NCBI GenBank assembly: GCA_905181815.1
Contig: CAJIZA010000001.1
Span: 310,001-374,000, forward strand
DNA length: 64,000 nt
Direction of reading: 5' to 3'
Source: an uncultured Planktomarina sp.
GTDB lineage: Bacteria; Pseudomonadota; Alphaproteobacteria; Rhodobacterales; Rhodobacteraceae
The notes under the pieces are model-generated. The model was given only the letters and a program-made list of their open reading frames with translations, did not search any database and was not told the DNA's origin. Both the position numbers and the translations under genes were made by a program. Within the stretch, counting starts at the first letter, position 1. Every line of letters begins with the position of its first letter. Shown piece by piece: positions 7,832 to 34,818 of the stretch.

Positions 7832-7930
7832 CATCAATTTGATCAATAGTTTATACAAATAGAACTTTTTGGGTAGCATTAAATTATCTAGTTTATTTCG
7901 AGATATATTTAGTTGTCATTTGGTATTCTT

Positions 7931-8849: not shown

Positions 8850-13084
<4,235 letters not shown>

Positions 13085-20052: not shown

Positions 20053-20541
20053 ATGTCAGATCAAATTTCATCTCTCGAAGACCTGGCAGTGGTCGCCGAA
20101 GGCACCTCTGCTGTGGTTGAAATCGCAGCGCCTCGGGAACCTGTTCGCGATGAATTGGGCCGCAGCTACGCCACTGGTAAACGCAAAGACGCGGTTGCCC
20201 GTGTATGGATCAAACCAGGGTCCGGCAAAGTAACTGTGAACGGCAAAGACCAGGACACTTACTTTGCGCGCCCTGTTCTGCAGCTGATCCTACGTCAACC
20301 GATGCAGGTGGCCGGTGTCGAAGGCGAATTTGACGTGGTTGCCACAGTCAAAGGCGGCGGTTTGACAGGCCAAGCAGGCGCTGTGAAACACGGCATCTCC
20401 AAAGCCTTGCAGCTCTATGAACCTAGCCTGCGCGGCGCCCTGAAAGCCGCCGGATTCCTTACACGCGACAGCCGGGTTGTGGAACGTAAGAAATTCGGTA
20501 AGCGCAAAGCCCGTCGGAGCTTTCAGTTTTCTAAGCGCTAA
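20053..20541 (+). CDS. rpsI: 30S ribosomal protein S9
   Basis: The 162-residue uS9 homologue has the conserved [35 protein letters not shown] and the C-terminal [14 protein letters not shown] tail that reaches the decoding centre tRNA. An N-terminal extension of about 35 residues is usual for Alphaproteobacteria. It is followed by a strong terminator. Confidence 0.98.
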
Positions 20542-20573
20542 GTTCGAATATTCGCATTTACTATATAAAAAAA

Positions 20574-20600
20574 GGGTTGCGTATTTCGCAGCCCTTTTTT
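20574..20600 (+). terminator. Rho-independent terminator of rplM-rpsI
   Basis: An 8-bp stem gggttgcg / cgcagccc with a 5-base loop is followed by six Ts, about 33 bases after the rpsI stop. Confidence 0.9.
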
Positions 20601-20848
20601 GTGCGTAGCAGAATTGCAGCAGACACAGTATGTGTTGACCTTATGGTTTAGTGATTTCAGCATATCTGTAGCGTTTTAAGTTTCTATTTAAGGAAGCCAG
20701 ATATGTTTAGAAGCGTGCTGTATTTAACCTTTAGCTAGCAATAGCTGGATTCCAAAGAGTTCCGAATTATGGTGGGGGGAAAATTGGGGGACGTTAAATA
20801 TTAAAGCTATTTTTAATATAATTAATTCATATATTTATGAAGATTGCT

Positions 20849-20938
20849 TGGCAGAGAGACAGGGATTCGAACCCTGGGTACCCTTGCAGGTACAACGGAT
20901 TTCGAATCCGTCCCGTTCGACCACTCCGGCACCTCTCC
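20849..20938 (-). tRNA. tRNA-Ser (anticodon CGA)
   Basis: On the minus strand the 90-base gene runs from GGAGAGG to an encoded CCA. It has a class II long variable arm, an anticodon loop TTCGAAA with CGA, the T-arm CAGGG-TTCGAAT-CCCTG, and an acceptor stem GGAGAGG/TCTCTCT with terminal G-T pairs. It reads UCG codons. It is the intact left end of the accessory region: 71 of its bases recur as a fragment at 28751 and in mutated form at 32995. Confidence 0.95.
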
Positions 20939-20951
20939 GCACATGAAGTTT
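20868..20951. repeat. Left att repeat (tRNA-Ser T-loop to beyond its 5' end)
   Basis: This is identical over 84 bases to 28751-28834. Crossover at the T-loop side (gga/cgaaccctgg) leaves the chromosomal tRNA 3' end on the left joined to element-derived 5' tRNA sequence, so the tRNA and probably its promoter region are restored by the element. Confidence 0.85.
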
Positions 20952-21794
20952 GCCTTCAGGTGACTTTCTCATATCAAACGGATTCTGAAATGCAACGCAA
21001 AAAGCATAGAGTTTGTGAGCGTGTAGTGGCTTGGCTTAGACGCTGGTCAGGTGTCAGCAGTATCGATGCGCCTTGGGGTAAAATATCAATACCGTCTGGT
21101 AATCTGGAGGATGAAAAGACCCGTCTATCCTCCAATGGTCTTAAATAAGCGCCCGCTGATGCCAACCGTGTGCAGCAAGTGTAACGTAGAGCGTGGACTA
21201 GTAATTTGAATCAGGTCCTAGGCCACTATTTATGCCCATGGTTACTTATACAATCGTAAAGAGAGACTGTTTTTATGTGAAATCCGAATGTTTAGACCAC
21301 TTTAGGTATAAATGTTTTTCTCAGTAGTTAATTTATTTTTCAAAACAGAATAGATTTTTTGATAAAGAAATATCAAAAAAACAATAGAGAAAATAAGAAT
21401 GTTATCCTTAATCTAAATCACTGTACTCAATATAATCATCAGTCTAGAAGTGGTTAAATATACCCCCGGTAGCCCCTATGTATATGGTTTAGTCGTTGAA
21501 AGACGGTATAACGTGCCGCCGCGGGCCAAATCAGGGCAGGGGCAGAGCCTGAGGGGGCCTTTACCGTTACACCTAATCCCCCTAAATCGGCCTCAGACTT
21601 ACAATTAAACCTATAGTTAGCACCTAAGATAAGTTGTCTTCTTCTGGTGCCCCCAATAACGGTAAAACCTAAAGGTGTTGGTCACGCAATTTGTCTTATA
21701 GGTTTGCTCATTTTTTGGGTTTATATTAGATTTGATTTGGTCGAAAATTAATGCAATGAAGCTAGCGGCAACTGTCAAATATGGTGGAAAGACA
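20952..21794. other. Noncoding left arm of element A
   Basis: This is 840 bases with no ORF that is conserved in element B. It aligns loosely with 28835-30010, for example cgtgtgcagca...gtagagcgtggac (21169-21198 and 29040-29072), and contains the left member of a compound inverted repeat (21475-21535). A small ORF near 20990 is not preserved in the relative and is not called. Confidence 0.6.
21475..21535 (+). repeat. Compound inverted repeat, left member (boxes A and B), element A
   Basis: Box A cctatgtatatgg (about 21475-21487) and box B ggccaaatcagg (21524-21535) recur inverted and in reverse order at 22962-23009, bracketing the rpsU cassette. The same arrangement is present in element B. 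Confidence 0.6.
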
Positions 21795-21995
21795 ATGCAA
21801 GTAAGTGTTCGTGATAATAATGTTGACCAAGCTCTTAGGGCCCTGAAAAAAAAGCTGCAACGGGAAGGTGTGTATCGTGAAATGAAGCTCAAGCAGCATT
21901 TCGAAAAACCATCTGAGAAAAAGGCTCGTCAGGCAAAAGAAGGACTTAGCCGTCAACGTAAACTTGCGCGTAAAAAAGCTGAAAAAGAGGGCTGA
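21795..21995 (+). CDS. rpsU: 30S ribosomal protein bS21 carried by element A
   Basis: A 66-residue bS21: [20 protein letters not shown], then [20 protein letters not shown] and a basic tail. bS21 sits near the anti-Shine-Dalgarno end of 16S rRNA and affects initiation. The ATG at 21795 matches the usual family start; an in-frame ATG at 21732 adds 21 unsupported residues. The protein is identical to the copy at 30011 even though about 19 codons differ synonymously, which shows strong purifying selection. Its placement inside a mobile element is unusual for a host gene, but phages are known to carry bS21. Confidence 0.93.
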
Positions 21996-22200
21996 TTATT
22001 TCGTATATTAAGCTAATAATAGCCCTGTTTGAAACTTGATGGCATATACTAAGCTCAGTTTATAGACTTCGGACGCCGTCTATCACCGCGAGCGATTAGC
22101 CAAATCAGCTGCATGTACTGTTTGGTGAAATGAGTGTGGTTTTTTATTGGTGAAATGAGTGTGGTTTTTTAATTAGAACCTCAAAGGTAAAGGATTTTCG

Positions 22201-22437
22201 ATGACTTGTCTTTTTGTACAAATACGTTGTCGGCCCGGCGCTGCCTATGCAGTCGCGGCGCAAATCGTCATGCGCGAAATTCATTCAGAGCTTTATTCCA
22301 CCAGTGGCGATTTTGATTTGATGGTGAAACTTTATGTGTCTGATGGCCAGGATATTGGCATGTTTATAAACGACAATTTGCTCAATATTGACGGCATAGA
22401 GCGCACTTACACGATTCAAACTTTTAAAGCGTTTTGA
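22201..22437 (+). CDS. Stand-alone Lrp/AsnC-type effector-binding (RAM) domain protein
   Basis: A 78-residue protein with the RAM-domain pattern VQIRCRPGAAYAVAAQI, HSELYSTSGDFDLMVKLYV and NLLNIDGIERTYTIQTFKAF, but no DNA-binding helix-turn-helix. Such domains form oligomers that bind small ligands (amino acids), and stand-alone copies exist in Roseobacter-group bacteria. The paralogue at 30391 differs at about 11 residues. It lies downstream of rpsU in both elements, so the pair travels together. Its role is unknown; it could modulate host Lrp-type regulators. Confidence 0.85.
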   Translation: MTCLFVQIRCRPGAAYAVAAQIVMREIHSELYSTSGDFDLMVKLYVSDGQDIGMFINDNLLNIDGIERTYTIQTFKAF

Positions 22438-22596
22438 TGAACACAATATATTTAGGGGGCGATTCTAGTGAAACTAACGTTGGCTTGCATAGTGCTTGTT
22501 GTTGCTGTTTTACCCAGTGACTTCGTCTCAAAACTCCTTGAATTAATATAAAAGTGGTCTCCACCCAAGCTTGTAGTTTGGCCTATGACTGTGGTG

Positions 22597-22737
22597 TCAT
22601 TCTTTGTTTAAAACTCCAAATTCTATGAGAATGCTGGGCGTCAGTATCCAGTACATTTTTAAGAGCAGGGCAAGACCAAGCGTTAGGATTAGCAATGCGC
22701 TGACGATAAGCCATCTTTTGGTTTGTACGGGTAGCAT
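22597..22737 (-). CDS. Small single-span membrane protein, conserved in both elements
   Basis: A 46-residue ORF starts MLPVQTKRWLIVSALLILTL and continues GLALLLKMYWMLTPSIL: a short basic N-terminus, then one transmembrane helix (about residues 9-27). The homologue at 30769-30900 (43 residues) preserves the frame and most residues while many third positions differ, the best evidence that it is translated. It is convergent with the Lrp-like gene. I do not recognise the family. Confidence 0.55.
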   Translation of the reverse strand: MLPVQTKRWLIVSALLILTLGLALLLKMYWILTPSILIEFGVLNKE

Positions 22738-22961
22738 AGTGTGAACCTAGCGCATTACTGTAGGTTCGAAAATGATAGAGGAGAGACAAAGACATTAAGA
22801 ATTTTGGATGGGGGTCAAAAATTCCATATTTTTAAGACAAATTTGTGTCATTATTTAGCATAATGCTAATTTTGACATTTTGAGTGGGCCATATTGTTTT
22901 GTAATAACGATGGGGTTGTATTTTGACCGCATGTATTTGCTCGACATACCTCGTCTTCCAG

Positions 22962-23009
22962 CCAGATTTGGCCGATGGGGGGATTTGCGCTCGGGCCATA
23001 TACGTATAC
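22962..23009 (-). repeat. Compound inverted repeat, right member (boxes B' and A'), element A
   Basis: ccagatttggcc (22962-22973) and ccatatacgtatacc (22996-23009) are the inverted counterparts of boxes B and A at 21475-21535. About 85 bases around them are well conserved with element B (31088-31180) without coding potential. Confidence 0.6.
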
Positions 23010-23170
23010 CCCCTCACATTTTTTCGCCTAAATTATTGGCGATATACTTTAAACTGCTTAAGGGCTGCACAACTATTCATAGTTTGCCTTTTTGATTGGC
23101 GCATTGTGCAGCAATTTTTTAGTCTTATGATGAAACCATAGTCAAACATAAATACACCCATCCTGGGTGT

Positions 23171-23249
23171 CACCCTGTAACCCATTCTCCCGGGTCTATT
23201 ACAGGGTGTACTGGCCAGCGTGCTCTAAATGAGCGGCTGGCTTTTTTTT
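23171..23249 (+). terminator. Double hairpin and Rho-independent terminator
   Basis: A 10-bp hairpin caccctgtaa / ttacagggtg (23171-23208) is followed by gccagc...gctggc with an inner gctc/gagc stem (23214-23241) and eight Ts. Element B has the same terminator at 31352. With the conserved noncoding DNA upstream it could end a small RNA, but no transcript is proven. Confidence 0.75.
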
Positions 23250-23279
23250 CTTGAAGTTACCGAATGTCGGGCCAGCTCT

Positions 23280-23615
23280 TACTATAGAATGGCTTATAGC
23301 CATTGTCCTCTTCGGAGGAGGATTAGCATTTATTGGGTGGTCAATGCTGGTCCAAGGATGGCTAGCAACTGTGGGTGAACGCAGCGTGTTAGTCATCCGC
23401 CCCTATCTCTATAGGTTGAACTAAAGGTCTACTAATAGCTCTACTATGGATTTGGCCCTCCCTTGCCATTTTATCCACATTTGTGGGGACAGCTTTAGGG
23501 AGAACTATAGGTATAAGTTCTCCCTCCGTTTACTCTCTATGGTGCAACCTTGAAATTGGTCATATTTATATGATTTTTACATAGAGGCACCAGACCTGAT
23601 AGTCACCACCTAGGG
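23280..23615 (+). repeat. Noncoding module, copy 1 of 3
   Basis: This stretch, ending in agaggcaccagacctgatag, recurs at 29545-29838 and 31400-31604 in element B. Shared pieces include taggttgaac...aaaggtctact, an agggagaactataggtata-type segment and the agaggcaccagacc box. No ORF is conserved. It precedes the small ORF at 23694 as copy 3 precedes the one at 31682, so it may hold that gene's regulatory region. Confidence 0.6.
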
Positions 23616-23693
23616 TGGGTCTCAAATAAAGCAGCGTCGAAGTAATCCAATTTTGAGACTTCGCCGTATACTTGATATAAGGAGGAACTTTAC

Positions 23694-23837
23694 ATGACTA
23701 TTCATCAAGAGTTTTTAAAGTTTGAAGCGGTTCTCGCTCATTGCGAAACACGGGTATCAGACACTTCACTGAGCGCAGCCATGGACTACGGTCGTGAAAT
23801 GCATTTTTTCGATAGCACTAACACCCTGTCACAATAA
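23694..23837 (+). pseudogene. Truncated small protein gene (MTIHQ family)
   Basis: Starting at an ATG with Shine-Dalgarno ggagga, the ORF reads MTIHQEFLKFEAVLAHCETR and stops after 47 residues. The homologue at 31682 has 74 residues; where it reads cca tca, this copy has caa taa, and the sequence after the stop (GQLLAEMILPTIEG) still matches. The copy is therefore truncated by a point nonsense change. The function is unknown. Confidence 0.65.
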
Positions 23838-23865
23838 GGTCAGCTTTTAGCTGAGATGATATTGC

Positions 23866-25588
23866 CTACCATCGAAGGTTAGTGGTCTTCTCACTCTGGT
23901 GACCCGTAATAACAGCGAAACCCATAGAAGCCTGCTCACGCAGTCTATTCAACTCAGCCGCCATCAGCTCTTCTTTACGTACACCCATGCGCTGCTCAAC
24001 ATCCTGAGCCATTGCATCGACCCAATACTGGCAGGCCATAGCAAGCGCATCTAGTCTGTCATCATTGGTCAAGTGCGCCACGGTCAGCCGTAATGCGCGT
24101 CAGCTGATACATCAGTTGGTAACGTAGTGCTTGCTCAGGGGGCAGGTGCTGACAGCTATCAAAGTCCTTCTGGATGACCTTCTTGTCCATCACCAGTCTG
24201 TGCTGGTTCATCACAGGCTCAAGAACATCGATGATACGCCGTTCCTTCTGCGTATTGTGGCGAACTTCGCTCATTGTGACAGGATGGACTTTGTTCAGCA
24301 CAGGCATAAACAGCTGGTTAAACATCCCATCACCAAAATTTGACTCAACAATAATTTCATTGACCTGTTCTTCCTTGGCTATGACTGCAAGTTTCTGCAG
24401 TGCTTCCTCTGAGTATCCGCCTGCGATGCCACCGCATCTGCGGACGTATAGGTAGCCATTGAGCATCTTTACGACTGCGTAGCCTGTCTCATCCTTACCG
24501 CGTCCTGACGGGTCAATACTCATGACTGAGCCAGTGTATTCGACGAACTCAGAACTCATGAACATAGGCTTGTGATAGTGGTCTCCGTTGAACGCTACGT
24601 TAGGCAATTCTTCTACGATATACTGGCTATCAGATGACCATGAGACCTTCTCAGGGGCCTCCTGAGTGGGTATATCCATGATTACTAGGTCAGACACCTT
24701 GAGAGGGTATCTTTCGGCATCAGAGAGTCTCGTATCGAGCATAAACTGCAGGGCAAATCCTGACCGCCCGTAGGATGCTTCACGTTCGAGCAAGTCGAAA
24801 TCCGAGAAGCGGTTAGGGTCTGTAGGTTCACCGACAATAGTAGCGTCGATTGCCAGTGCATTGCTAATGAGAGGCGCTATTTTGCTGCCGTATCCGACCA
24901 TTTGCTCTGGATTTGGATACCTAGCTGGCCAGATGCTGACCTTGTATCCACGGTCAGGCAGCTTGTTATACAAACTCTCTTGGTTCTGTGGTGTGCCGAG
25001 GTAGATGATGCGCCCGTCTGGTTTGAGAATAGCGTCAAATTCCTTCACAGCCTCTGACAGTTTATCCCGCATTCCTTGGGTCATAGAGTTGTTCGGTACT
25101 TCGATGTCATCTGCGACGATTACATCAGCACGAGAGCCAGCCAATTGGCCTGATATGCCCACAGATTTCACTGAGGGTGCGTGAGACGCAGCAGCAGGTG
25201 CTACATCAAAGCTAATCTTTGACTGTCTTTGGTCAGGCTTTGGCCGTAGGTGGGCCAATACTTCAATCTCGTTGATGAGGCGCAGCGTAAACGTAGTGAA
25301 ATCGTCTGAGCGAGATTTAGAGGCTGAAACGACCAAAATGTTTAGCTGTGGGTTCATGTACAGAAGCCAGACCACATAGGCCGATGTCACCCATGACTTA
25401 CCAACACCTCGGAAGGCTTCGATAATCATGCGCTTGTCGCCGTGCTGTAGGTTGTAGGCGATGTCATATTGAACAGGGGTAGGGTCGGGGAGGTTGAGGT
25501 GCTTCCAGATAACGAAGAGGAACTTGCGGAAATCTGAAAGCGGGTCATTCGCTATGGGGATGCCAAGCGAGGTTGTTGCTTTGAACAT
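23866..25588 (-). CDS. T7-like phage terminase large subunit (TerL), frameshifted near its C-terminus
   Basis: This is the DNA-packaging motor ATPase/nuclease of the T7 gp19 type. It has Walker A EAFRGVGKSW (about residues 57-66), SVKSVGISGQLAGSRADVIV leading to the Walker B site ADDIEVPNN (about 159-167), IIYLGTPQNQESLY, and the nuclease-domain start IDPSGRGKDETGYAV (about 358-372) with ESNFGDGMF. The frame stops at 24062, but the next C-terminal motif (TNDDRLDALAMACQYW) continues in another frame to 23866, so one indel near 24070 splits a protein of about 575 residues, the length of T7 gp19. This is a real change or a read error. A 125-base remnant of this gene's 3' end persists at 31896 in element B. 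Confidence 0.92.
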
Positions 25589-25632
25589 ATTTATCCGTAT
25601 TGTTGAGGCTCACAGTAAAAAGGAGAATTAAA

Positions 25633-25902
25633 ATGTTTGCTACTTTTACCGACTGGGAATTTTCTGACATGGATGCGATGAAAGCCACTGGTACGGCTAT
25701 GTGGCCCAAAGTGCAGGCTGCTGGTGCAATCAGCTTTACTGCGACTGCAACGGGAACAAACACTGCCAGAAGTAGGATTGTGTGGCCCGATGCCGCAACA
25801 GCATCGGCTGCTATCGATGGTTTGAGAGCGGCGGCTATGGAAATGACCGATACCAAAGCCACTGGCATGGCTGCAGGCGAGGTTATGCTGGATTTTAGCT
25901 AA
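25633..25902 (+). CDS. Small protein between the terminase genes, probable alpha/beta dimeric fold
   Basis: An 89-residue ORF, MFATFTDWEFSDMDAMKATG onward, with an aggag Shine-Dalgarno 10 bases before ATG 25633. It is Ala/Thr-rich with alternating hydrophobics and lacks cysteines. Size and pattern resemble dimeric alpha/beta-barrel (ABM/EthD-like) proteins, but the match is weak. It is encoded on the opposite strand in the gap between terS and terL, an insertion in a module that is usually contiguous. It may be a cargo gene of the same kind as those at 27004 and 27366. Confidence 0.6.
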   Translation: MFATFTDWEFSDMDAMKATGTAMWPKVQAAGAISFTATATGTNTARSRIVWPDAATASAAIDGLRAAAMEMTDTKATGMAAGEVMLDFS

Positions 25903-25903
25903 A

Positions 25904-26122
25904 CTAATTAGCCTTAAGTTCACTCACATCAAAATCTGCATCGCTAAAGTCGGGCAGGGTGGCTACTAGGCTGCTGAGGGGCGAACCCTCGACTGCCAAT
26001 GCTTCAATGCCGTTGTCCTTCAAGAACTGTCGGGCGACGTTAAGGTCAGCCGATTTAGCCTCAGGGTCTTGAATGCGGAGTAGTAGGTTCTCTGCCAGCG
26101 TTTTATGCAGCAGGGCCATCAT
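25904..26122 (-). CDS. Probable T7-like terminase small subunit (TerS)
   Basis: A 72-residue ORF, MMALLHKTLAENLLLRIQDP then EAKSADLNVARQFLKDNGIE. The pattern (a short helical N-terminus, then DLNVARQFLKDNGI, and an acidic tail) is what small terminase subunits of marine autographiviruses show. It is just upstream of terL on the same strand, as in T7 (gp18-gp19). TerS recognises the packaging site and stimulates TerL. It is a little shorter than T7 gp18. No copy is seen in element B. Confidence 0.7.
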   Translation of the reverse strand: MMALLHKTLAENLLLRIQDPEAKSADLNVARQFLKDNGIEALAVEGSPLSSLVATLPDFSDADFDVSELKAN

Positions 26123-26336
26123 CTCTTTGTTTGTTCAACTTTAGCCGCCGCGCCACTAACTACACCGAAGCGGGACGCTCTTAAGTTGGTCTTTTTATCA
26201 TTATAAAATTGTGTTGATAAGGGAAATGACCGTCGTTCCTACTCACAGGGGTTGTCACACGCATGTGGCTTATGTTTTCGTTACTTAGTCCGTCTGCCTA
26301 AGGAGGCATGACATCTGACCCGAGAAGGAGGTTGAG

Positions 26337-26639
26337 ATGAAAAAAATTATTGGTTCAATTTTTGTTTGTTCAATTTTGGCTACATCTGCGATGGCGAACG
26401 AAACATTGATATGGCCTCGCACAGCAAACGAACCCTTTCACCCCAATCCAGAAATACTTTTAGCGCAGGGCAAAATACTTAGTACGCAACTAGATGATAA
26501 TCGTACTGATAGGTATGTAACTGTGGTGAAATTTATAGTGGCTTTTGACGATCTGATTTATATGTGTCGTCATATTGATTATCGCAGCGGTGATAATAGC
26601 GACATTTATTGTGTAAAATCGAGATCGGTTACGAATTAG
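26337..26639 (+). CDS. Small secreted protein, element A copy
   Basis: A 100-residue protein with a signal peptide (KKIIGSIFVCSILATSAMA, cleavage about residue 20) and a mature part beginning NETLIWPRTANEPF with two cysteines (MCRH and YCVK) that could pair in the periplasm. A strong aaggagg Shine-Dalgarno precedes the ATG. The copy at 32213 differs at only 4 residues and about 3-4 percent of bases, much closer than the left-arm genes. I do not recognise the family. Confidence 0.75.
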   Translation: MKKIIGSIFVCSILATSAMANETLIWPRTANEPFHPNPEILLAQGKILSTQLDDNRTDRYVTVVKFIVAFDDLIYMCRHIDYRSGDNSDIYCVKSRSVTN

Positions 26640-26709
26640 GTTTTTTGGGCTTGGTAGTTCCGCCGAGCATCGCGTTATAACTGCCGCCAATGTAGATAAT
26701 TCAAAATTC

Positions 26710-26862
26710 TTAGCTGTTTTTTTGTCGATAGTTGGAGCATCTGGCTTTCTTTACGACTTCCTTTACCGTTATCTCTTTGCCATAGCGTTCCATCAGTTTC
26801 GTCACGGGAACATTCGGTACGTGACCGCACTTACATTCAAATGAAAGATGGTTGTTTAATAT
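26710..26862 (-). pseudogene. Zinc-ribbon protein relic, element A copy
   Basis: The minus strand reads NNHLSFECKCGHVPNVPVTK and ERYGKEITVKEVVKKARCSN, then YRQ where a second CxxC would be expected. No ATG is in frame. The homologous stretch at 32583 keeps the second pair (CSNCGQ) but has a stop in the first (CK-stop-GH). The ancestral gene was therefore a small two-CxxC zinc-ribbon protein, now broken differently in each copy. Confidence 0.6.
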
Positions 26863-27003
26863 GGTTTGGAGTTGGGTCTGTTATAACCAGTAAATGAAAG
26901 TAAGAGAAAAAACTGATTTATAATTTAGTGTAGTTTTTGAGTTCACTTTATGCATGATTTTGAGAATGAAAATGTGGATATAGTAATTAGGGAGGAAAAA
27001 GAG

Positions 27004-27327
27004 ATGTCAATTAGATGCATAATGATGGGTTCTTACAACGCAGAGGGCGCGAAGGGTATAATTGGTGGCTCCGACCGGATGGCTGCAGTTAAAACGGTTG
27101 CTGAAGCGGCTGGTGGTAGCGTTAATTTTGCAAGTTTTATGCGCGGTAGAATGGACATTATTGTTGATTTTAATGTCCCTGATGCTGCGACAGCGATGGG
27201 CGTTATGGCCGCAGCTCACGCATCTGGTACTTTTGCAAGTTTAGAAGTTCATGAGTGTATCGATAACGGGCCAGTAGTAGCAGCGGCGCAGCGTATTATG
27301 AAGGCATACGTGCCAGCTAATGCTTAA
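27004..27327 (+). CDS. GYD-domain protein
   Basis: A 107-residue protein with the GYD-type pattern NAEGAKGIIGGSDRMAAVKT, EAAGGSVNFASFMRGRMDII and VDFNVPDAATAMGVMAAAHA. GYD proteins are small alpha/beta dimers of mostly unknown function. A gggagg Shine-Dalgarno about 10 bases upstream favours ATG 27004 over the in-frame 26950. The gene is only in element A and is followed by another small ORF 38 bases on, probably an operon. Confidence 0.7.
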   Translation: MSIRCIMMGSYNAEGAKGIIGGSDRMAAVKTVAEAAGGSVNFASFMRGRMDIIVDFNVPDAATAMGVMAAAHASGTFASLEVHECIDNGPVVAAAQRIMKAYVPANA

Positions 27328-27365
27328 CAAAAATGATATGCCTTCTTTTACTAAGGAGTAATACG

Positions 27366-27656
27366 ATGGCCAAGTTTGTAGTGTATAGTAAATGGTTTTG
27401 GAAAGATGGTGTGCCTGAGGATGCTTTTGTCCAAGATTGGTTGCGAGGCCGCAAGCCCAATATGATTGCTGAGGATACTGTCTTATTCAAGGTTGACGAT
27501 AATCATCATGGTTCTGTTACGACTTATGCAAATGAAGCTGATTTCAAAAAAGAGCGTGGTTCCGTTCTGGAAGAACGCAAAAGAAATCATGAAGAGGGCG
27601 CTCAATTAATTGATGAAAATATAGGGTCTGTAATGGGTCAAATGTCTGGGCTTTAA
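27366..27656 (+). CDS. Uncharacterised small acidic/basic-mixed protein
   Basis: A 96-residue ORF, MAKFVVYSKWFWKDGVPEDA onward, with aaggag 7 bases before the ATG. The N-terminal strand (KFVVYSKWFW), the middle segment VLFKVDDNHHGSVTTYANEA and a charged helix (ERGSVLEERKRNHEEG) are compatible with a dimeric alpha/beta barrel. I cannot name the family. It follows the GYD gene closely. Confidence 0.6.
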   Translation: MAKFVVYSKWFWKDGVPEDAFVQDWLRGRKPNMIAEDTVLFKVDDNHHGSVTTYANEADFKKERGSVLEERKRNHEEGAQLIDENIGSVMGQMSGL

Positions 27657-27685
27657 ATCGATAAAGCGACGCATGCCTAAATAAA

Positions 27686-27714
27686 TCTGGTGGGGGATAC
27701 CCCCCGCCAGACTG
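27686..27714 (+). terminator. Hairpin after the GYD operon
   Basis: tctggtggggg / cccccgccaga forms an 11-bp stem with a tiny loop shortly after the stop at 27656. The T run starts some 8 bases later (ctttttc), so termination is probable but not certain. Confidence 0.6.
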
Positions 27715-27715
27715 C

Positions 27716-27775
27716 TCACTTTTTCTTTGGTGAATGACCTACTTTTTTACCGTAAGTTCCTTTGCTTTTTGCCAT
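27716..27775 (-). CDS. Possible 19-residue basic microprotein
   Basis: The minus strand encodes MAKSKGTYGKKVGHSPKKK, with aggaag and ttagg motifs 5-15 bases before the ATG. It is very basic, and such GTYG-K-PPKK-like peptides occur in marine podoviruses (from memory). It lies just downstream of the integrase in the same direction. Coding is unproven at this length. Confidence 0.4.
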   Translation of the reverse strand: MAKSKGTYGKKVGHSPKKK

Positions 27776-27844
27776 CCTAATCTTCCTGTAAAGTACGCCT
27801 GAGGGGCCTTTTTTATTTTACTTTAAGTTTTTCATTTAACCCAT

Positions 27845-28687
27845 TCAAGAATTGATAATATCTGCAAGACGTGAAGCAATCGTCCCCATCGTATTTGGAT
27901 TGGTGTGAACATATTTCATCGTGCTAGAGGGGTCTTTGTGACCAAGCATAGCGCCAATTAGCAGATGATTAATGTTCATCTCGTTAGCCATCACGGTAGC
28001 TGCGGTATGGCGGGTACAATGGAAAACAGCAGACTTGTCGCCATCACAAATATTTAGCCTGATATTTTTCCAAGCATGATAATGTGCGCCCTCAATAAAC
28101 ATGGTCTTTGCGTTCCAGTTTAACGCTTCAAATGCGTTAAAAGCGTCATCGTTAAGTGGAACGTTTCGGCGGTCTCCGTTTTTTGTGTGAGTTAAACGCA
28201 CATGACGGACATCATTTATGAACACCACGTCCTTTTGTCGAACACGCAATATCTCACTGAGGCGCATTCCTGTATTGATACCGATGTTAAACATTGGCAG
28301 CAGCCATACGTGTTTGTGGTCAGCCAGATATTCTCTGATTTGTTTCACTTCAGAGCGGCTATAAAAGCGCACACGCTGGTTCTTAACTTTAACAAATTTG
28401 ATGTTTGGAATTTTTGGTAGGTCCAAATAATCTTTGGCATAATTAAAGAACCTGCTCAGGGCTGAACGATAATGGTTGATAGTGTTGTCTGATATACCTC
28501 GTGTCTCTTTTAGCCAGCGGCAGAAATCAAGTATGTCAGCCCCGCTGATTTCATCCAACCGTTTATCAGCATTGTCACCAAAATCTAAAAATACCTTCAG
28601 TTTTGCAGTACTTTCCTTATGGTGCAGGTCAGTTGTGTCCCAAATGTAGGCAGCATGCTCGTTCAGAAAGTTTGTGATGTTTGTCAT
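27845..28687 (-). CDS. Tyrosine-family site-specific integrase of element A
   Basis: A 280-residue phage-type integrase. The SAM-like N-terminal domain (about 1-95) is followed by the catalytic domain with the R-K-H-R-H-Y set: Arg142 in NTGMRLSEIL, Lys169 in THTKNGDRR, His223 and Arg226 in FHCTRHTAA, His250 in MLGHKDPSS and Tyr259. Its start is only 64 bases from the att repeat at 28751, as expected for an enzyme acting on attP. It is complete and the best candidate for the recombinase that used tRNA-Ser(CGA). A remnant of a relative is at 32745-32929. Confidence 0.95.
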   Translation of the reverse strand: MTNITNFLNEHAAYIWDTTDLHHKESTAKLKVFLDFGDNADKRLDEISGADILDFCRWLKETRGISDNTINHYRSALSRFFNYAKDYLDLPKIPNIKFVKVKNQRVRFYSRSEVKQIREYLADHKHVWLLPMFNIGINTGMRLSEILRVRQKDVVFINDVRHVRLTHTKNGDRRNVPLNDDAFNAFEALNWNAKTMFIEGAHYHAWKNIRLNICDGDKSAVFHCTRHTAATVMANEMNINHLLIGAMLGHKDPSSTMKYVHTNPNTMGTIASRLADIINS

Positions 28688-28750
28688 TGTCTGTCTCCAA
28701 ATCTATTGAAGAAAGCAAAAATCCGTTCGATTAGGTAATTTTTGAGTGGA

Positions 28751-28834
28751 CGAACCCTGGGTACCCTTGCAGGTACAACGGATTTCGAATCCGTCCCGTT
28801 CGACCACTCCGGCACCTCTCCGCACATGAAGTTT
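28751..28834 (-). repeat. Middle att repeat: tRNA-Ser fragment lacking its 3' end
   Basis: This is identical to 20868-20951. It holds 71 of 90 tRNA bases (28751-28821 on the minus strand) and lacks the acceptor 3' strand and part of the T-arm, so it cannot make a tRNA. It is the junction between elements A and B. Confidence 0.9.
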
Positions 28835-29349
28835 ATCTTCAAGTCTTTCTCTCGTATCAAACGGGTTCTAAAATGCAATACTAAAACAAGTCGTTTAGAC
28901 GCTTCGAAGCGGTGCCAAATTGGTGACCGCTGCATCAATACCGCTTTGTATGAAATGGGGGTGTCGCTAGGTAATCTCAAGGTTGGCGTGACCCATCGAT
29001 TCCATAACAGTCCACAAGTTTTTACCTGCTGAGACCAGCCGTGTGCAGCACGTTTGACGTAGAGCGTGGACAAGTGATCTGTATCATGCCCTTGGACACT
29101 GGTTTCGCATACGGACCTCGGGGGCGTCCTTAAATTTGCTCGTTGTCATTTGAAATTGGAATATTACGACCATATCCACGTTAAAATATCGCAGCAGAAA
29201 ATCTTATAAACTGTTCAACATCGCGTGAAATATGGGAATATAAAAAATGTTTTTAAACAATAGAGTAAACATAAAATGTATTGTTGATTTAAAGGTCTAC
29301 ATTTTATTTATTCAAGGAATAGATACCCGTTGATTACCCCCCCAGAACC

Positions 29350-29422
29350 CGTATTTATATTGGTCAGGCATCAGAAAACTGCAAAAATGATGGTAAAAAT
29401 TGCCACCGTCGGCCAAATTAGG
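29350..29422 (+). repeat. Compound inverted repeat, left member, element B
   Basis: cgtatttatattgg and ggccaaattagg correspond to boxes A and B of element A and face the inverted pair at 31098-31143. Confidence 0.5.
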
Positions 29423-29544
29423 GCAGGGCATGGGCGGATTTCTGTCCTAAACTATTACATGTAAAATCTCAGACTTTTACACCAAAATGTTTAGGCCAAA
29501 CCTTGATGTAACCAGCAGTCGAACCTCCATCCCAGACTGATGTG

Positions 29545-29838
29545 ATTTGTAGCCATTTTCTTCTTCACGGACGGCTGGCTTGGGTGGGTGAACGCTCAAT
29601 GCTAGTGGTCCACCTGTAGGTTGAAACTGTTGACCAATTTTTTTGACACTAAAAGATTCTTACGTCTTAGCCATCCCTCATTTGAAAAATTTATCTACAT
29701 TTATGGTGGCAGATTTAGGAAGAACTACAGGTATAATTCTCCCCGCCTGTTTTCTTGTAAGGGTAACCATTAAAACTGGTCTTATAAATAGGGAGTTTTT
29801 ACGTGAGAGGCACCAGACCTGTAGTTACCAACTAGGAT
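29545..29838 (+). repeat. Noncoding module, copy 2 of 3
   Basis: This matches 23280-23615: tgtaggttgaaact, gatttaggaagaactacaggtataattctcc and tgagaggcaccagacctgtag. It lies upstream of rpsU in this element, suggesting duplication or a third nested insertion. Confidence 0.55.
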
Positions 29839-30010
29839 TGTTGATTTTACTACCCTAATGCATTGTAATAATCATAAAATTCAAAGAATCTTGCTCACGC
29901 AGTTGGTCATACTGGTTCGCTTATTTGACTATTGTGCTTATTCAATTTGATTTGGCTTAAATTTAATGTCATGTAGTAAATGTAACTTTATCAAATATGG
30001 CAGACAGTAA

Positions 30011-30211
30011 ATGCAAGTAAGTGTTCGTGATAATAACGTCGATCAGGCTCTCCGGGCTTTGAAGAAAAAGCTACAGCGCGAAGGTGTGTATCGTGAAATG
30101 AAGCTCAAGCAACATTTCGAGAAACCATCTGAGAAAAAGGCTCGTCAGGCGAAAGAAGGACTCAGCCGTCAGCGTAAACTCGCCCGTAAAAAAGCTGAAA
30201 AAGAGGGCTGA
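30011..30211 (+). CDS. rpsU: 30S ribosomal protein bS21 carried by element B
   Basis: All 66 residues are identical to the 21795 copy, while about 19 codons use different synonymous triplets and none changes an amino acid. Two separately inherited copies are thus both under selection for protein function, or one was maintained as the working gene in another genome before arrival. Upstream DNA is diverged, so regulation may differ. Confidence 0.93.
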
Positions 30212-30390
30212 TTACTCTGCTTATTGGGCAAATATTAGTTCTGTAAAAAATTCATGGCATCATCTAAGATTCGTCTATTGACCTTAGCTGTCTGATCCTA
30301 CCGCGAGTGATAAGCAAAATTAGCCGTGTATACTGTTTCGTGAAATGAGTATGGTTTTTTAGTGGGAACTCTAAAAATAAAGGATTTGCG

Positions 30391-30627
30391 ATGACTTGTC
30401 TTTTTGTACAAATACGTTGTCGACCCGGTACGGCCTATGAAGTCGCTGCGCAAATTGTACTGCGTGAAATTCATTCAGAGCTTTATTCCACCAGTGGCGA
30501 TTTTGATTTGATGTTGAAACTTTATGTGCCCAATGGTGAGGATATTGGAGTGTTTATAAATAATAATTTGCTCAATATTGATGCTATCGAGCGCACCTAC
30601 ACGATGCAAACTTTTAAAGCGTTTTAA
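30391..30627 (+). CDS. Stand-alone Lrp/AsnC-type effector-binding domain protein, element B copy
   Basis: A 78-residue homologue of the 22201 gene, about 86 percent identical in protein. It keeps SELYSTSGDFDLM and NLLNID...IERTYT. It starts at ATG 30391 after an aaaggattt-type sequence, with the same spacing from rpsU as in element A. No helix-turn-helix is present. Confidence 0.85.
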   Translation: MTCLFVQIRCRPGTAYEVAAQIVLREIHSELYSTSGDFDLMLKLYVPNGEDIGVFINNNLLNIDAIERTYTMQTFKAF

Positions 30628-30768
30628 TAAACTTGATTTATTTTAGTATCGATGCCGATGAAACACCAACTAGTGTCTATTGTTCTTTGGTTCAAGTTCT
30701 TCGATGGATGTCTCTAGGCCCTCAAAAGGGTAACCTATGGCAAAGACGTCCTCTAAGCGGCAAATGGC

Positions 30769-30900
30769 CTATCTCACCCACTTGCTGAGCAGGATGCTTG
30801 GCGTGACCATTCCGTAAATCTTGAAAAGCAGAGCCAGGCTGAGAGTCAGGATAAGCACGGCGCTGACTATAAGCCATCTTTTGCTTTGAAGAGGTAGCAT
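30769..30900 (-). CDS. Small single-span membrane protein, element B copy
   Basis: A 43-residue ORF: MLPLQSKRWLIVSAVLILTL then SLALLFKIYGMVTPSILL. It is homologous to 22597-22737 with a different last few residues. Protein-level conservation across diverged DNA supports coding. The function is unknown. Confidence 0.55.
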   Translation of the reverse strand: MLPLQSKRWLIVSAVLILTLSLALLFKIYGMVTPSILLSKWVR

Positions 30901-31351
30901 GATTAGAACTTAACGCATTTCTACGATTTTGAAAATGATAGAGATAGGACATAAGTATAAATCACTGTTAATGAGCTAAAATTAGAGCATCATTACGATA
31001 ATTTAACTAGATGTAGATTGTGATTTTAAAGAATTACTTAATATTAGATGGTTAGGCGCGGCCCGACTTCGATTCGACCTAAAAATCTACAATTCAGCCA
31101 GATTTGGCCGACGGAGGATTTTCGCTCGAGCCATATACGTATAACCCCTGACATTTTTCCGCCTAAATTATTAAAAATAATATACCAAACTGACTTTCCC
31201 ACATCCAGTTACCCCCAGTGTATTTTTGTTGACGCTACGGCAGAAAGAGAAGGGGTTGTTTCATAATGAGACTTGTGGCGGAATACCAACATTCCAGTGA
31301 CTCGGAGCGGGCCCTTTCGAATCCTCCCAAGGTAGGCGAAGGACAAAACTA
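30901..31351. other. Noncoding stretch of element B with conserved box region
   Basis: About 450 bases hold no supported ORF. The part 31088-31180 is the best conserved noncoding DNA between the elements and includes ccagatttggcc (31098-31109) and ccatatacgtata (31131-31143), the right member of the inverted repeat. Confidence 0.55.
31098..31143 (-). repeat. Compound inverted repeat, right member, element B
   Basis: Boxes B' and A' are in the same order and with similar spacing (about 21 bases) to those at 22962-23009. Confidence 0.55.
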
Positions 31352-31386
31352 GCCAGCTTTCTCGAAATGAGAGGCTGGCTTTTTTT
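31352..31386 (+). terminator. Rho-independent terminator, element B
   Basis: gccagctttctc / gagaggctggc hairpin followed by seven Ts, equivalent to the one at 23214-23249. Confidence 0.8.
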
Positions 31387-31399
31387 AGCAGCGCCTTCA

Positions 31400-31604
31400 G
31401 GTTGAACTAAAGGTCTACTGACAGTTTACTAAGGATTGGTGCTGTTGATATCATAATTTTATACAAAAAATTGAGGATAACTTTGAGGTTAACCTATAGG
31501 GTAAATTCTATCTCTATTACCTCTCTATTGTGCAACAATTGAAATTAGTCATATTTATAAAGATTTTTACATGAGAGGCACCAGACCTATAGTCACCACC
31601 CAGG
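31400..31604 (+). repeat. Noncoding module, copy 3 of 3
   Basis: ggttgaactaaaggtctact and tgagaggcaccagacctatag match the modules at 23280 and 29545. It leads into the small ORF at 31682. Confidence 0.6.
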
Positions 31605-31681
31605 ATGGTCTTAAATGTCGCAGCATCAAAGTAATCCAATTTTAGTGCTTCCCCGTAATTATGGGTAAAGGAGCTATTCCA

Positions 31682-31906
31682 ATGACCATACACCAACAGT
31701 TTTTGAACTTTGAAGCAGTGATCGCGCATTGTGAAACACGGGTACCATCAGGCACACTGTGCGAGGCAATAAAATATGGACGTAAAATGGAGTTTATCGA
31801 TAAAACTAACAAATTGTTACCATCAGGTGAGCTTTTAGCTGAGATTATAACGAATTGTTCGCCATCAGATGAGCTACTAGCTGAGATTAAGTTGCCTACC
31901 ATTTAA
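31682..31906 (+). CDS. Small protein of the MTIHQ family, element B copy
   Basis: A 74-residue ORF, MTIHQQFLNFEAVIAHCETR onward, with aaaggagc 10 bases before ATG 31682. It contains an internal repeat (PSGELLAEI and PSDELLAEI), so the C-terminus has a duplicated 16-residue unit not present in the broken copy at 23694. The 3' end overlaps the convergent terL remnant. The function is unknown. Confidence 0.55.
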   Translation: MTIHQQFLNFEAVIAHCETRVPSGTLCEAIKYGRKMEFIDKTNKLLPSGELLAEIITNCSPSDELLAEIKLPTI

Positions 31907-32020
31907 GGTTATTGGTGGTACTGGTCTTCTCACTCTGGTGACCCGTGATAATTGCAAAGCCCAAAGAGCCTGTTCACGCAGTCTATTCAACTCAGCTGAC
32001 ATCAGCTCTTTGTCTGTCAT
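31896..32020 (-). pseudogene. terL 3' remnant in element B
   Basis: The minus strand keeps ELMSAELNRLREQA, matching the C-terminal end of the element A terminase (ELMAAELNRLREQA), followed after a one-base loss by TGHQSEKT in another frame. Upstream terminase sequence is gone. It shows that element B once carried the packaging gene. Confidence 0.75.
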
Positions 32021-32212
32021 TTGGATATTTAGTAGGTTCAAAGGCCTAAAATGACGCTGTTGCGTTTGCCATAGTGGTATATCCTTAAATTTGATTGGGA
32101 AATGACCGTCGTTTCTACTCACAGGGGTTGTCACACGCATGTGGCCTATGTTTCCGTTATTTAGTCCGTCTGCCTACGGAGGCATGACATCTGACCCGAG
32201 GAGGAGGTTAAA

Positions 32213-32515
32213 ATGAAAAGGATTATTGGTTCAATTTTTGTTTGCTTAATTTTGGCTACATCTGCGGTGGCGAACGAAACATTGATATGGCCTCGCACAG
32301 CAAACGAACCCTTTCACCCCAATCCAGAAATACTTTTAGCGCAGGGCAAAATACTTAGTACGCAACTAGATGATAATCGTACTGATAGGTATCTAACTGT
32401 GGTGAAATTTATAGTGGCTTTTGACGATCTGATTTATATGTGCCGTCATATTGATTATCGCAGCGGTGATAACAGCGACATTTACTGTGTAAAATCGAGA
32501 TCGGTTACGAATTAG
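32213..32515 (+). CDS. Small secreted protein, element B copy
   Basis: A 100-residue homologue of 26337 with signal peptide KRIIGSIFVCLILATSAVA and both cysteines kept. It differs at only 4 residues. The upstream 100 bases, including gaccgtcgtt and ggcatgacatctgacccga, are also nearly identical, so its expression signals are conserved. Confidence 0.72.
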   Translation: MKRIIGSIFVCLILATSAVANETLIWPRTANEPFHPNPEILLAQGKILSTQLDDNRTDRYLTVVKFIVAFDDLIYMCRHIDYRSGDNSDIYCVKSRSVTN

Positions 32516-32582
32516 GTTTTTTGGGCTTGGTAGTTCTGCCCAGCATCGCGTCATTACTAACGCTGACATAGATAATCCGAAA

Positions 32583-32738
32583 TTAGAAGCTGTTTTTTTG
32601 CCCACAGTTGGAGCATCTAACTTTCTTCATGACTTCCTTGACCGTTATCTCTTTGCCATAGCGTTCAATCAGTTGCGTCATAGGAACATTAGGTGCGTGA
32701 CCTCACTTACATTCAAATGAGAGATGGTTGTTTGATAT
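32583..32738 (-). pseudogene. Zinc-ribbon protein relic, element B copy
   Basis: Reads NNHLSFECK, stop, GHAPNVPMTQLIERYGKEIT and KEVMKKVRCSNCGQKNSF. The tgc codon of the first CxC is tga. The second CxxC is intact, unlike the copy at 26710. Confidence 0.6.
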
Positions 32739-32744
32739 GCACCT

Positions 32745-32929
32745 GGCCTTTTCTAGATCGTGGCAAAAGTCCATCATGTCTGCCCCGCTGATTTCATCTA
32801 CCGTTTATCAGCATTGCCATCAAAATCGAAAAAGACCTGCATCTTTGCGACACTTTCCTTGCGGTGCAGAGCAGTGGTGTCCCAAATGTAAGCGTAATGC
32901 TTATTAAAAAAGTTTATGATATTTGTTAT
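32745..32929 (-). pseudogene. Integrase 5' remnant in element B
   Basis: The DNA aligns with the first part of the integrase at 28500-28687, for example gatttcatc...cgtttatcagcattg and cactttcctt...ggtgca, and the leader to the att site. The start codon is ATA instead of ATG and the rest of the gene is missing. Confidence 0.8.
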
Positions 32930-32994
32930 TGTCTGTCTCCAACTTGATTGAAGAAGGCAAAGAATCCGTTCGACTAGGTGATTTTTGGAGCGAT

Positions 32995-33064
32995 GAATCC
33001 TGGGTACCCTTGCAGGTACAACGGATTTACAATCCGTCCCGATCGACCACTTTGGAACCTCTCC
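32995..33064 (-). repeat. Right att repeat: mutated tRNA-Ser fragment
   Basis: gaatcctgggtacccttgca and onward matches the tRNA-Ser fragment with several substitutions, including the anticodon loop and the 5' stem, so it is an old non-functional copy, probably the original 5' half. It marks the right end of the accessory region, 90 bases before the next gene. Confidence 0.85.
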
Positions 33065-33153
33065 AAACCATGCAGTTTAGACTGTCGAGATGCCACGAAA
33101 TCAAGAATTTGGAGATTATCCATCGGGGTTACCTGGCAAATTTTCGACGCGGT

Positions 33154-34818
33154 TCAAAGGCCCTCTCGTATCCACGCGGCGGCCTTTTCGGCGATCATCA
33201 AGGTGGGGGCATTGGTATTGCCGCTGGTGATGGTTGGCATGACGCTCGCATCGACTACGCGCAGTCCTTGCACACCTTTGACACGCAGATGCGGATCCAG
33301 AACCGCTGCGGGATCGTCCATCTGGCCCATTTTTACCGTGCCAACCGGGTGGAAAATTGTATTAGCGATATCACCGGCGAGCCGCGCCAATTCTTCGTCG
33401 CTTTGGTGCTGCACCCCCGGCTTTAATTCTTCTGGCGCGTACTCCTGCATCGCTGGTTGAGCCATTATCTGCCTCGCTTGGCGCAGGCTATCGGCCGCAA
33501 CTTGCCGATCTTCGGAGGTACTGAGATAATTGGGCACAATCTTGGGCGGATCTTGGAAATTGGCCGAGCTGATTTGCACCTGGCCTCTGCTGGTTGGGTT
33601 GAGATTGCAAACGCTCACGGTAATGGCGGGAAAGTCATGGAGATCTTCGCCAAAGGCCTCCAGGCTCAAAGGCTGCACATGGTATTCGAGGTTGGCATGG
33701 GGGCGGGCGAGATCCGAGCGGGTGAAAGCGCCCAATTGACTGGGTGACATGCTCATTGGACCCGAGCGGTTGAGCAGATATTCAGCACCGATTTTCAGTC
33801 TGCCAAACAGGCTATTGGCCAGAGTATTTAGTGTCTGTGTACCATTGACTTTGAAAACCGCACGGATTTGTAAATGGTCTTGCAGGTTTTCCCCCACCGG
33901 CGCATCGTGGATCACCTCAATACCCTGGGATCTCAGCAAATCTGCTGGGCCAATACCAGAAAGTTGTAGAATTTGTGGCGAATTGATTGCGCCGGCAGAC
34001 AAGATTACCTCGCGGTTAGCTGTGACGTGGACAGATTGACCCGCGCGAGACAGGCGTAGGCCCGTACATCGCAGCTGGCCATCGTCTCCAGTGCACCAGG
34101 TGAGTTTTTCTGCTTGTGCTTCAGTCCAGATCGTTAAATTTGGCCGTGACTGCGCCGGGCGCAGAAATGCCTTGGAGCTGCTCCAACGCCAACCGGAGCG
34201 TTGATTGACATCGAAATATCCGACACCGGCATTATCACCGGCATTGAAATCATCAATTTTTTTAATTCCGGCCTGCTCGGCGGCATTGGCAAAACTGTCC
34301 AGCACATCCCAGCGCAGGCGTTGTTTTTCTACGCGCCATTCGCCGCCAGAGCCGTGCATATCTGAAAACCGGCTGTTGTTTCCAGTTATCGGATCAGCGC
34401 CTTGATCGAGGCGGTAGTGATTCTCATGGGCTTTGAACGCCGCGAGAGTGTTTCGCCAAGACCAGCTGTCATCGCCGGTCAATTTCGCCCAACCGTCATA
34501 ATCCCGCGCTTGGCCGCGCATATAAATCATGCCGTTGATCGACGAGCAGCCGCCCAAAACCCTGCCGCGTGGATAGCGTTGCACACGATTGTTAAGGCCA
34601 GCATCGGGCTCTGTGTTATACATCCAATCTGTACGCGGATTGCCAATACAATAAAGGTAGCCCACGGGGATGTGAATCCATGGATAGTTGTCTGCTTTGC
34701 CCGCTTCGAGCAATAAGACCCGGCGGTTTGAATCCGCGCTCATTCGGTTAGCCAGCAAGCAGCCGGCTGTACCGCCGCCAATGATGACGTAGTCGAAGGT
34801 TGCGGATGTGTCTGACAT
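33154..34818 (-). CDS. GMC-family FAD oxidoreductase (choline/alcohol dehydrogenase-like)
   Basis: A 554-residue GMC flavoenzyme: YVIIGGGTAGCLLANRMS at the N-terminus, RGRVLGGCSSINGMIYMRGQ (GMC signature 1), SAGAINSPQILQLSGIGP (signature 2), and the C-terminal active-site FHPVGTVKMG with VVDASVMPTITSGNTNAP. The family includes choline dehydrogenase BetA, but no betaine aldehyde dehydrogenase is next to it, so the substrate could be another alcohol. It lies directly outside the island. Confidence 0.9.
   Translation of the reverse strand: MSDTSATFDYVIIGGGTAGCLLANRMSADSNRRVLLLEAGKADNYPWIHIPVGYLYCIGNPRTDWMYNTEPDAGLNNRVQRYPRGRVLGGCSSINGMIYMRGQARDYDGWAKLTGDDSWSWRNTLAAFKAHENHYRLDQGADPITGNNSRFSDMHGSGGEWRVEKQRLRWDVLDSFANAAEQAGIKKIDDFNAGDNAGVGYFDVNQRSGWRWSSSKAFLRPAQSRPNLTIWTEAQAEKLTWCTGDDGQLRCTGLRLSRAGQSVHVTANREVILSAGAINSPQILQLSGIGPADLLRSQGIEVIHDAPVGENLQDHLQIRAVFKVNGTQTLNTLANSLFGRLKIGAEYLLNRSGPMSMSPSQLGAFTRSDLARPHANLEYHVQPLSLEAFGEDLHDFPAITVSVCNLNPTSRGQVQISSANFQDPPKIVPNYLSTSEDRQVAADSLRQARQIMAQPAMQEYAPEELKPGVQHQSDEELARLAGDIANTIFHPVGTVKMGQMDDPAAVLDPHLRVKGVQGLRVVDASVMPTITSGNTNAPTLMIAEKAAAWIREGL

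Follow-up and report, generated by a model that had tools for sequence, protein, structure and literature searches.

We analysed a window of 64,000 nucleotides from the 2.54 Mb genome of an uncultured Planktomarina (an RCA roseobacter; assembly GCA_905181815.1, contig CAJIZA010000001.1), in which a tRNA-Ser(CGA) gene (20849-20938, minus strand; ARAGORN and Rfam) is the integration site of a small element carrying a T7-type terminase. This insert, element 1, occupies positions 20868-28821 and is followed in tandem by element 2 (28751-33065), with rpsI on one side of this locus and a GMC oxidoreductase gene on the other. Their borders are marked by repeats of the 5' part of the tRNA gene, the attachment sites (att): a 71-bp copy at 20868-20938, a second copy between the two elements (28751-28821) and an imperfect third copy at the outer end of element 2 (32995-33065). 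In two genomes of the same genus (G045 and G305) the tRNA-Ser gene passes directly into sequence matching the window from 32995 onward; since the site is empty there, both tandem stretches are inserts. Their G+C content is about 0.40-0.50, compared with 0.54-0.58 on the left and 0.54-0.55 on the right. Element 1 joins the tRNA gene at its 5' side, and therefore supplies the 5' part of the tRNA together with its upstream region; exactly the same 71-bp stretch is present in the phage contig L085. An Rfam scan found nothing beyond the tRNA.

Read in the direction of the integrase, element 1 consists of att, the integrase, the small gene p27366, a GYD-domain protein, a degraded cysteine-rich gene, p26337, TerS, the small gene p25633, TerL, p23694, an AsnC-domain protein, bS21 and att. 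The integrase, TerS and TerL share the minus strand, and all intact cargo (p27366, the GYD protein, p26337, p25633, p23694, the AsnC-domain protein and bS21) is on the opposite one. An earlier note, made from the letters alone, had described an integrated element with an integrase, TerS, TerL, bS21 and small genes, a content borne out by the Pfam and NCBIfam matches and by the att repeats. The integrase (27845-28687) is an intact tyrosine integrase of the Int2 type (Pfam Phage_integrase, E 3.8e-19), 86% identical to the second integrase of L085. The terminase was also rightly called T7-like and the element's own: TerS (25904-26122) matches DNA_Packaging_2 (Pfam, 1e-19), and TerL (24062-25588) matches the T7 RNaseH-like domain (Pfam, 6.6e-42) and termin_lrg_T7 (NCBIfam, 6.4e-210). 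The frameshift reported for terL is real, open reading frames (ORFs) and profile matches placing the C-terminal end of about 68 residues in another frame (23866-24081, minus strand). The part lost to this frame includes a DDRLDAL stretch, which probably belongs to the nuclease centre of such proteins.

Among the cargo, the bS21 gene (21747-21995, start uncertain; Pfam 5e-17) has a conserved core at 21801-21995 that is identical in element 2 and in the two related elements L094 and L098 described below. It is not the host rpsU beside a tRNA: phage-derived sequence lies between the tRNA and bS21, the empty sites have no bS21, and the genome holds a separate bS21 that is 84% identical. The stand-alone Lrp/AsnC ligand-binding domain protein (22201-22437; AsnC_trans_reg, 1.9e-11) is directly preceded by a 25-bp unit ending in TTTTTTA, present twice head to tail at 22122-22171 and once in element 2. 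A homologue of p23694 (23694-23837) stands directly after TerL in L085, and p26337 (26337-26639) has a nearly identical copy (99%) beside the capsid gene of the phage contig L086. The adjacent zinc-ribbon-like cysteine-rich gene (26640-26878, minus strand; marginal Pfam match) is degraded here and open in L086 (ORF 4574-4834, 82% identity). The GYD-domain protein (27007-27327) is recognized by Pfam at 8e-11. The ORF p27366 (27366-27656) has no family match, and p25633 (25633-25902), located between terL and terS, has none either, its only PHROG match being at E 0.054. Replication or repressor families were not found among the element proteins scanned with Pfam, PHROG and NCBIfam.

Element 2, which the earlier note had missed, is a decayed relative of element 1. 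It retains bS21 (30011-30211) and the AsnC-domain gene (30391-30627), both ORFs repeated from element 1, and a p26337 homologue (32213-32515, 95% repeat), all on the plus strand. On the minus strand it holds a remnant of a phage integrase, Int1 (28916-29074, residues 281-333, E 1e-10), the conserved block called motif A below (31104-31174, motif scan), a C-terminal remnant of TerL (31922-32010, identified by repeat and alignment), the rest of terS-terL being deleted, and an N-terminal integrase remnant with stops (32727-32961) repeated from element 1.

Phage remnants inside the elements

To search for phage genes, region 20501-33300 was compared at E<0.01 with the 39 proteins of roseophages CRP-113 and CRP-114, a query set containing neither TerS nor TerL. 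Only the integrase, two Int1 remnants and, in element 2, one weak match to gp1, an early protein, were obtained, and no working RNA polymerase (RNAP), structural or lysis gene was detected. Element 1 carries no working genes for a particle of its own, its kin L094 and L098 being alike in this, and an intact Autographiviridae prophage was rejected, RNAP and structural genes of its own being missing.

Phage sequence, overlooked by the earlier note, is nevertheless present inside element 1. A C-terminal Int1 remnant (21052-21206, minus strand) matches L085 (78% at the nucleotide level), L005 and L059 and, weakly, residues 279-346 of the CRP-113 integrase (E 0.001). The region upstream of a capsid gene, together with its first 15-17 or so codons, is fused to terS (26150-26329, minus strand; 84.5% nucleotide identity to L086, 67% to CRP-113). 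What is left of a scaffold gene is its very end with the 3' flank, only a few codons being retained (27692-27802, minus strand; 82% to L086 and L154, 79% to CRP-113). Since these pieces of Int1, scaffold end and capsid start persist, the original statement that the element has no capsid genes stands only in the sense that none is working. Other blocks resemble phages as well, namely att with the integrase (27876-29071, 85% to L085), TerS, TerL and the region 3' of TerL (22977-23612, 70% to L005), and the phage-matching blocks, separate as they are, follow prophage order.

In the contig L085, the TerL end is followed by a p23694-like and a MarR-like gene; next come integrase 1, the 71-bp att, identical to that of the window, integrase 2 and the RNAP. 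Since its att lies between integrases 1 and 2, the two integrase traces of the element are explained. The two tyrosine integrases around att in L085 (4209-6300) are different from each other, and L005 also has two integrases. These matches show that element 1 is a T7-like temperate phage of the RCA group reduced by deletion to its skeleton, and terS, standing behind the first capsid codons, may borrow the capsid translation start.

A second skeleton was found in contig L006, which is cut at its left end. Its TerS is intact, its TerL is open over 572 codons, and it adjoins an apparent 3' half of a tRNA: tRNA-Tyr by its anticodon, tRNA-Gly according to ARAGORN in pseudogene mode. The DNA beside it is of Planktomarina type, 95% identical to IMCC1909 and G305. 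L006 also retains 50 scaffold codons, so that the deletion has other end points here than in element 1. The fusion of capsid start to TerS start exists in two forms in the alignment, one in element 1, L094, L098 and L063 and the other in element 2 and L006; such differing junctions would mean that the minimal set arose more than once. Two small genes at the ends of the L006 skeleton (419-862 and 5084-5458) have apparent signal peptides and no assigned family. A further contig, L065, is labelled a satellite only by its likeness to L006.

Candidate promoter and packaging end

The sequence AGGTTGCACCATAG recurs in CRP-113, where 3 copies are exact and others have 1-2 mismatches, and in CRP-125, which has 5 exact copies. 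These sites are on the coding strand and mostly between genes, the gap directly behind terL included, and we take the motif as the candidate promoter of the phage polymerase. The window contains one site within 1 mismatch, an exact copy (23537-23550) that follows TerL on the same strand and is placed like T7 phiOR; the chance mean is 0.03 at this cut-off, and 3 of 100 shuffles had one site. The exact motif also occurs in L005 and IMCC1909, and a variant, GGTTGCACCTAAG, is found in L059 and in the CRP-114/-227/-361 group. Matches with 3 mismatches were not counted, since the window has several of them elsewhere.

About 500 bases beyond this promoter lies motif A (22967-23045, minus strand), a conserved block and candidate packaging or genome-end site. 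It was detected 200-1600 bp after TerL, on the same strand, in 40 of the 51 loci with enough sequence, a sample that takes in satellites and near-duplicate contigs; in three further loci (L009, L010 and L014) the distance is 144-154 bp, and six loci have none at the cut-off. The placement of the promoter and motif A recalls phiOR and the concatemer junction of T7. Plasmids that bear an origin and the concatemer junction of T7 are packaged when T7 infects the cell. Physical genome ends at motif A in CRP-361 and CRP-227 were considered and rejected, as these records simply start after a stop codon, and no exact terminal repeat was found in six CRP records.

Related elements and movement between hosts

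The same content, order and tRNA-Ser site are shared by the window genome, a Planktomarina metagenome-assembled genome (MAG; L094) and the isolate Rhodobacteraceae bacterium IMCC1909 (L098). Among 20 genomes of the genus, close TerL (at least 92%) was present in 3 and close integrase (at least 95%) in the same 3, the raw tallies of 4 of 20 each including one weak, unrelated match. Among 295 family genomes, TerL was found in the window, as one 47% match (G017) and as two weak matches; for viral TerL relatives, the best 80 of 596 were taken. The IMCC1909 copy has an open TerL of 576 codons and an integrase with an in-frame stop, and in the MAG the integrase is open and TerL is split. This split is unlikely to be an assembly slip, since it recurs in the separately assembled contig L063. 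The integrase is thus intact in two of the three chromosomal copies. The IMCC1909 element is a composite (L098, 12918-14125) with a second TerL C-terminal end and extra p23694-like genes, the exact promoter motif being present in the second half only.

Several other loci were considered. The genome contigs L095, L096, L097 and L099, with a T7-type terL, were not counted as satellites since each has at least one phage tail-type match nearby (in L095 a fibre match only), and IMG/VR contigs in which no structural gene was recognised (e.g. L009, L010, L058, L069, L070 and L073) were too short to be called satellites. In G045 (3.29 Mb), another element near tRNA-Leu(caa) (L140, 7700-12760) has motif A, an element-type bS21 and a p23694 homologue, together with insertion sequences, a 432-residue protein (weak phrog_4756 match) and a 425-residue integrase; no terminase was seen in it, and possibly it is a satellite relying on the packaging site alone. 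In G310, bS21 lies near a 455-residue phrog_4756 protein (E 1.3e-38) and a small cysteine-rich protein (L144, 3566-6390), perhaps a further bS21-bearing mobile element, and a long repeat run adjoins it (7700-10500).

Between the window and its two kin, synonymous distances (dS) are 0.025-0.208 for the integrase, p27366, GYD, p26337, AsnC and bS21 genes, compared with 0.245-0.673 for flanking host genes (13 comparisons with the MAG and IMCC1909); four more host-gene comparisons with G045, which lacks the element here, gave 0.206-0.460. The dS of integrase and cargo, being below that of the flanking host genes of the MAG and IMCC1909, implies a recent transfer between hosts. The earlier note had proposed a possible phage satellite, a view to be refuted, in its terms, by full-length relatives with structural genes, which would make this simply a deleted prophage. 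Such relatives do exist (the CRP phages, L059, L005, L017, L085 and L086), but the same-cargo form occurs in two other Planktomarina genomes, transferred after host divergence, and a related TerS-TerL skeleton occurs at another tRNA (L006). On these comparisons, the deleted form appears to be a mobile lineage rather than one private deletion.

The terminase genes behave differently. Between the window and the other satellite copies, terS and terL (the MAG TerL being left out of the computation) have dS of 0.683-1.207 and ratios of nonsynonymous to synonymous distance (dN/dS) of 0.035-0.106, which suggests purifying selection; between the MAG and IMCC1909, the dS of TerS is 0.131. In a TerL tree of 90 rows, the window pairs with the phage contig L017 (100/95), L006 and L065 group with the phage contig L005 (100/61), and IMCC1909 groups with the MAG (100/97). 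The five satellite rows need three label changes, at least two of them forced by well-supported branches. Furthermore, p26337 and its copy in L086 differ by dN 0.004 and dS 0. The terminase has thus moved separately from the integrase and cargo, being exchanged with phages.

Collectively, these data make it probable that element 1 belongs to a satellite lineage derived from T7-like temperate phages of Planktomarina (Autographiviridae), equipped with a terminase and a packaging end of its own. Several observations weigh against this conclusion. All three chromosomal copies are damaged, in TerL (window and MAG) or in the integrase (IMCC1909), and element 2 lacks terS-terL. As to the joining of element ends, which the earlier note had suggested seeking in virion DNA, a search of the viral contig set (viral_contigs) for the satellite attP junction, with one near-exact pattern, gave 0 matches. 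In the same set, the integrase scan yielded one locus, on a phage-like contig, the AsnC scan none, and a terminase was found beside bS21 in 0 of 24 loci within the flank covered, for which reason the bS21-bearing viral contigs were rejected as satellites. Concerning signals and functions, no replication gene is seen in the element, the promoter motif is absent within 3 mismatches from L006 and L065, L094 and L063 have it in a 3-mismatch form only, and no copy was seen upstream of terS. Finally, the conservation of the terminases could reflect selection in the source phages rather than in the satellite.

These lesions in the chromosomal copies and element 2, the 0 attP junctions and the Int1, scaffold and capsid remnants would also fit a dead, internally deleted prophage that is inherited and decaying, not mobile itself, with pieces overwritten by recombination with infecting phages; such recombination would account for the TerL tree as well. 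We regard this as unlikely, because the same cargo in the same order is present in three hosts with a dS under that of every flanking host gene (MAG and IMCC1909), the sites in G045 and G305 are empty, and two successive elements share one att site. Moreover, the phage contigs examined yielded none of the cargo genes AsnC, bS21 and GYD, and hence overwriting by phages would not homogenise the cargo.

The conservation of the cargo proteins (dN of 0 between window and kin for both the GYD protein and bS21), while TerL or the integrase is broken in each chromosomal copy, is what could be expected of an island kept by the host for bS21, AsnC and GYD, or for interference with phages through a decoy packaging end and terminase, and moved passively by phage integrases or transduction. 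Motif A, the promoter and the terminase are the parts that a decoy would keep. However, PADLOC recognized no known defence family among the 8 element proteins scanned, the element is limited to 3 of the 20 genus genomes, and most copies have an intact integrase; we consider such an island highly improbable.

Proposed life cycle and comparison with known satellites

According to the satellite interpretation, the ancestor would have been a phage with attP between two integrases. The satellite would have lost everything from the RNAP to the lysis genes and been left with one integrase and att, with terS-terL and with the sequence that follows terL, while bS21, the AsnC-domain protein and the GYD protein would have been added as cargo. 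Upon infection by a related phage, the satellite integrase would excise the element and the helper RNAP would start at the phiOR-like candidate promoter. As long as the element is integrated, transcription from this site would lead away from terL. Once a circle or a head-to-tail concatemer has formed, the transcript would pass motif A and att and then enter int, terS and terL, which share one strand. Helper enzymes would replicate the element as a concatemer, and TerS-TerL, its own or the helper's, would package it into helper heads. It is possible, and we propose it only tentatively, that such a satellite keeps a whole T7-type terminase, a phiOR-like promoter and a genome end, re-acquires this module from co-circulating phages so that it matches them, and turns on int-terS-terL only after excision, when circularisation places the single promoter upstream of these genes.

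Phage-inducible chromosomal islands (PICIs), including the Staphylococcus aureus pathogenicity islands (SaPIs), use their TerS with the helper TerL and have their own replication initiator and repressor; in the element, TerL is present and the proteins scanned include neither of these families. Tycheposons are integrated at tRNA genes and possess a tyrosine recombinase and their own set of replication modules. Like the virion-encapsidated integrative mobile elements (VEIMEs), which are recovered from virion DNA, they are marine and thought to travel in phage particles. Both kinds are named in PMC10803314 and PMC11389934.

The closest phages are the Autographiviridae roseophages CRP-113, -114, -125, -171, -227 and -361 (PMC11092137), which have a TerL 82-84% identical to that of the element, the same TerS-TerL order, and the promoter motif and motif A after TerL. 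Unlike the element, they are about 39-40 kb long and have an RNAP, one annotated integrase and genes for replication, head, tail and lysis, and no bS21, AsnC or GYD match was seen in their genomes. Similar relationships hold for the IMG/VR contigs already mentioned: L085 has the identical att and the related integrase, L017 has a TerS 97% and a TerL 98% identical (the latter over 453 residues), and L086 has p26337 next to the capsid gene, whereas RNAP and replication genes are present in L085, L005 and L059, and tail or head genes by L017, L059 and L086. Phage-borne bS21 is already known (PMC6375957, PMC9723584). Planktomarina has been described as almost prophage-free, with none but one incomplete prophage in IMCC1909 (PMC10675870), which may be the element copy there.

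Among satellites, the PICMI of Vibrionaceae (PMC10803314) is likewise a small integrated marine element without capsid genes, and the concatemer packaging model is borrowed from it. Unlike the element, with its tRNA-Ser site and terS, PICMI lies beside fis, has its own excision and replication core and has no terS, the word "terminase" being absent from the main text of that paper. The capsid-forming PICIs (cfPICIs) and the TerS-carrying PICIs and SaPIs resemble the element in bearing TerS or both TerS and TerL, but cfPICIs also encode capsid, portal and connectors, neither capsid nor portal being present in the element, SaPIs have TerS without TerL, and both keep replication and regulation genes of which none was seen here (PMC10690885). 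The Mulch and Flayer satellites of Streptomyces, as outlined in the same source, also carry a terminase and miss key replication genes, and differ from the element in encoding portal and capsid. The features of the element that could favour its packaging by a helper are TerS-TerL, with TerL broken in this copy, and motif A and the promoter motif as candidates.

In the open-access literature searched, with tycheposons and VEIMEs outside the comparison, no satellite with a T7-type terminase and without capsid genes was found. As far as these sources extend, satellites with TerS, or with TerS, TerL and capsid genes, are known already, and PICMI is a known case of a marine satellite lacking both capsid genes and terS; the combination of a whole T7-type terminase, no shell, and a phage-type candidate promoter and end has no match among them. 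If the proposed reading is true, one locus would display the path from prophage to satellite, and the terminase would be exchanged in step with the phages, so that helper matching becomes testable with the isolate IMCC1909 and cultured phages of related RCA strains. Compared with the known systems, the element would then represent a satellite derived from a T7-like temperate phage that has no shell but a complete packaging motor, and its host would belong to an abundant genus of ocean bacteria.

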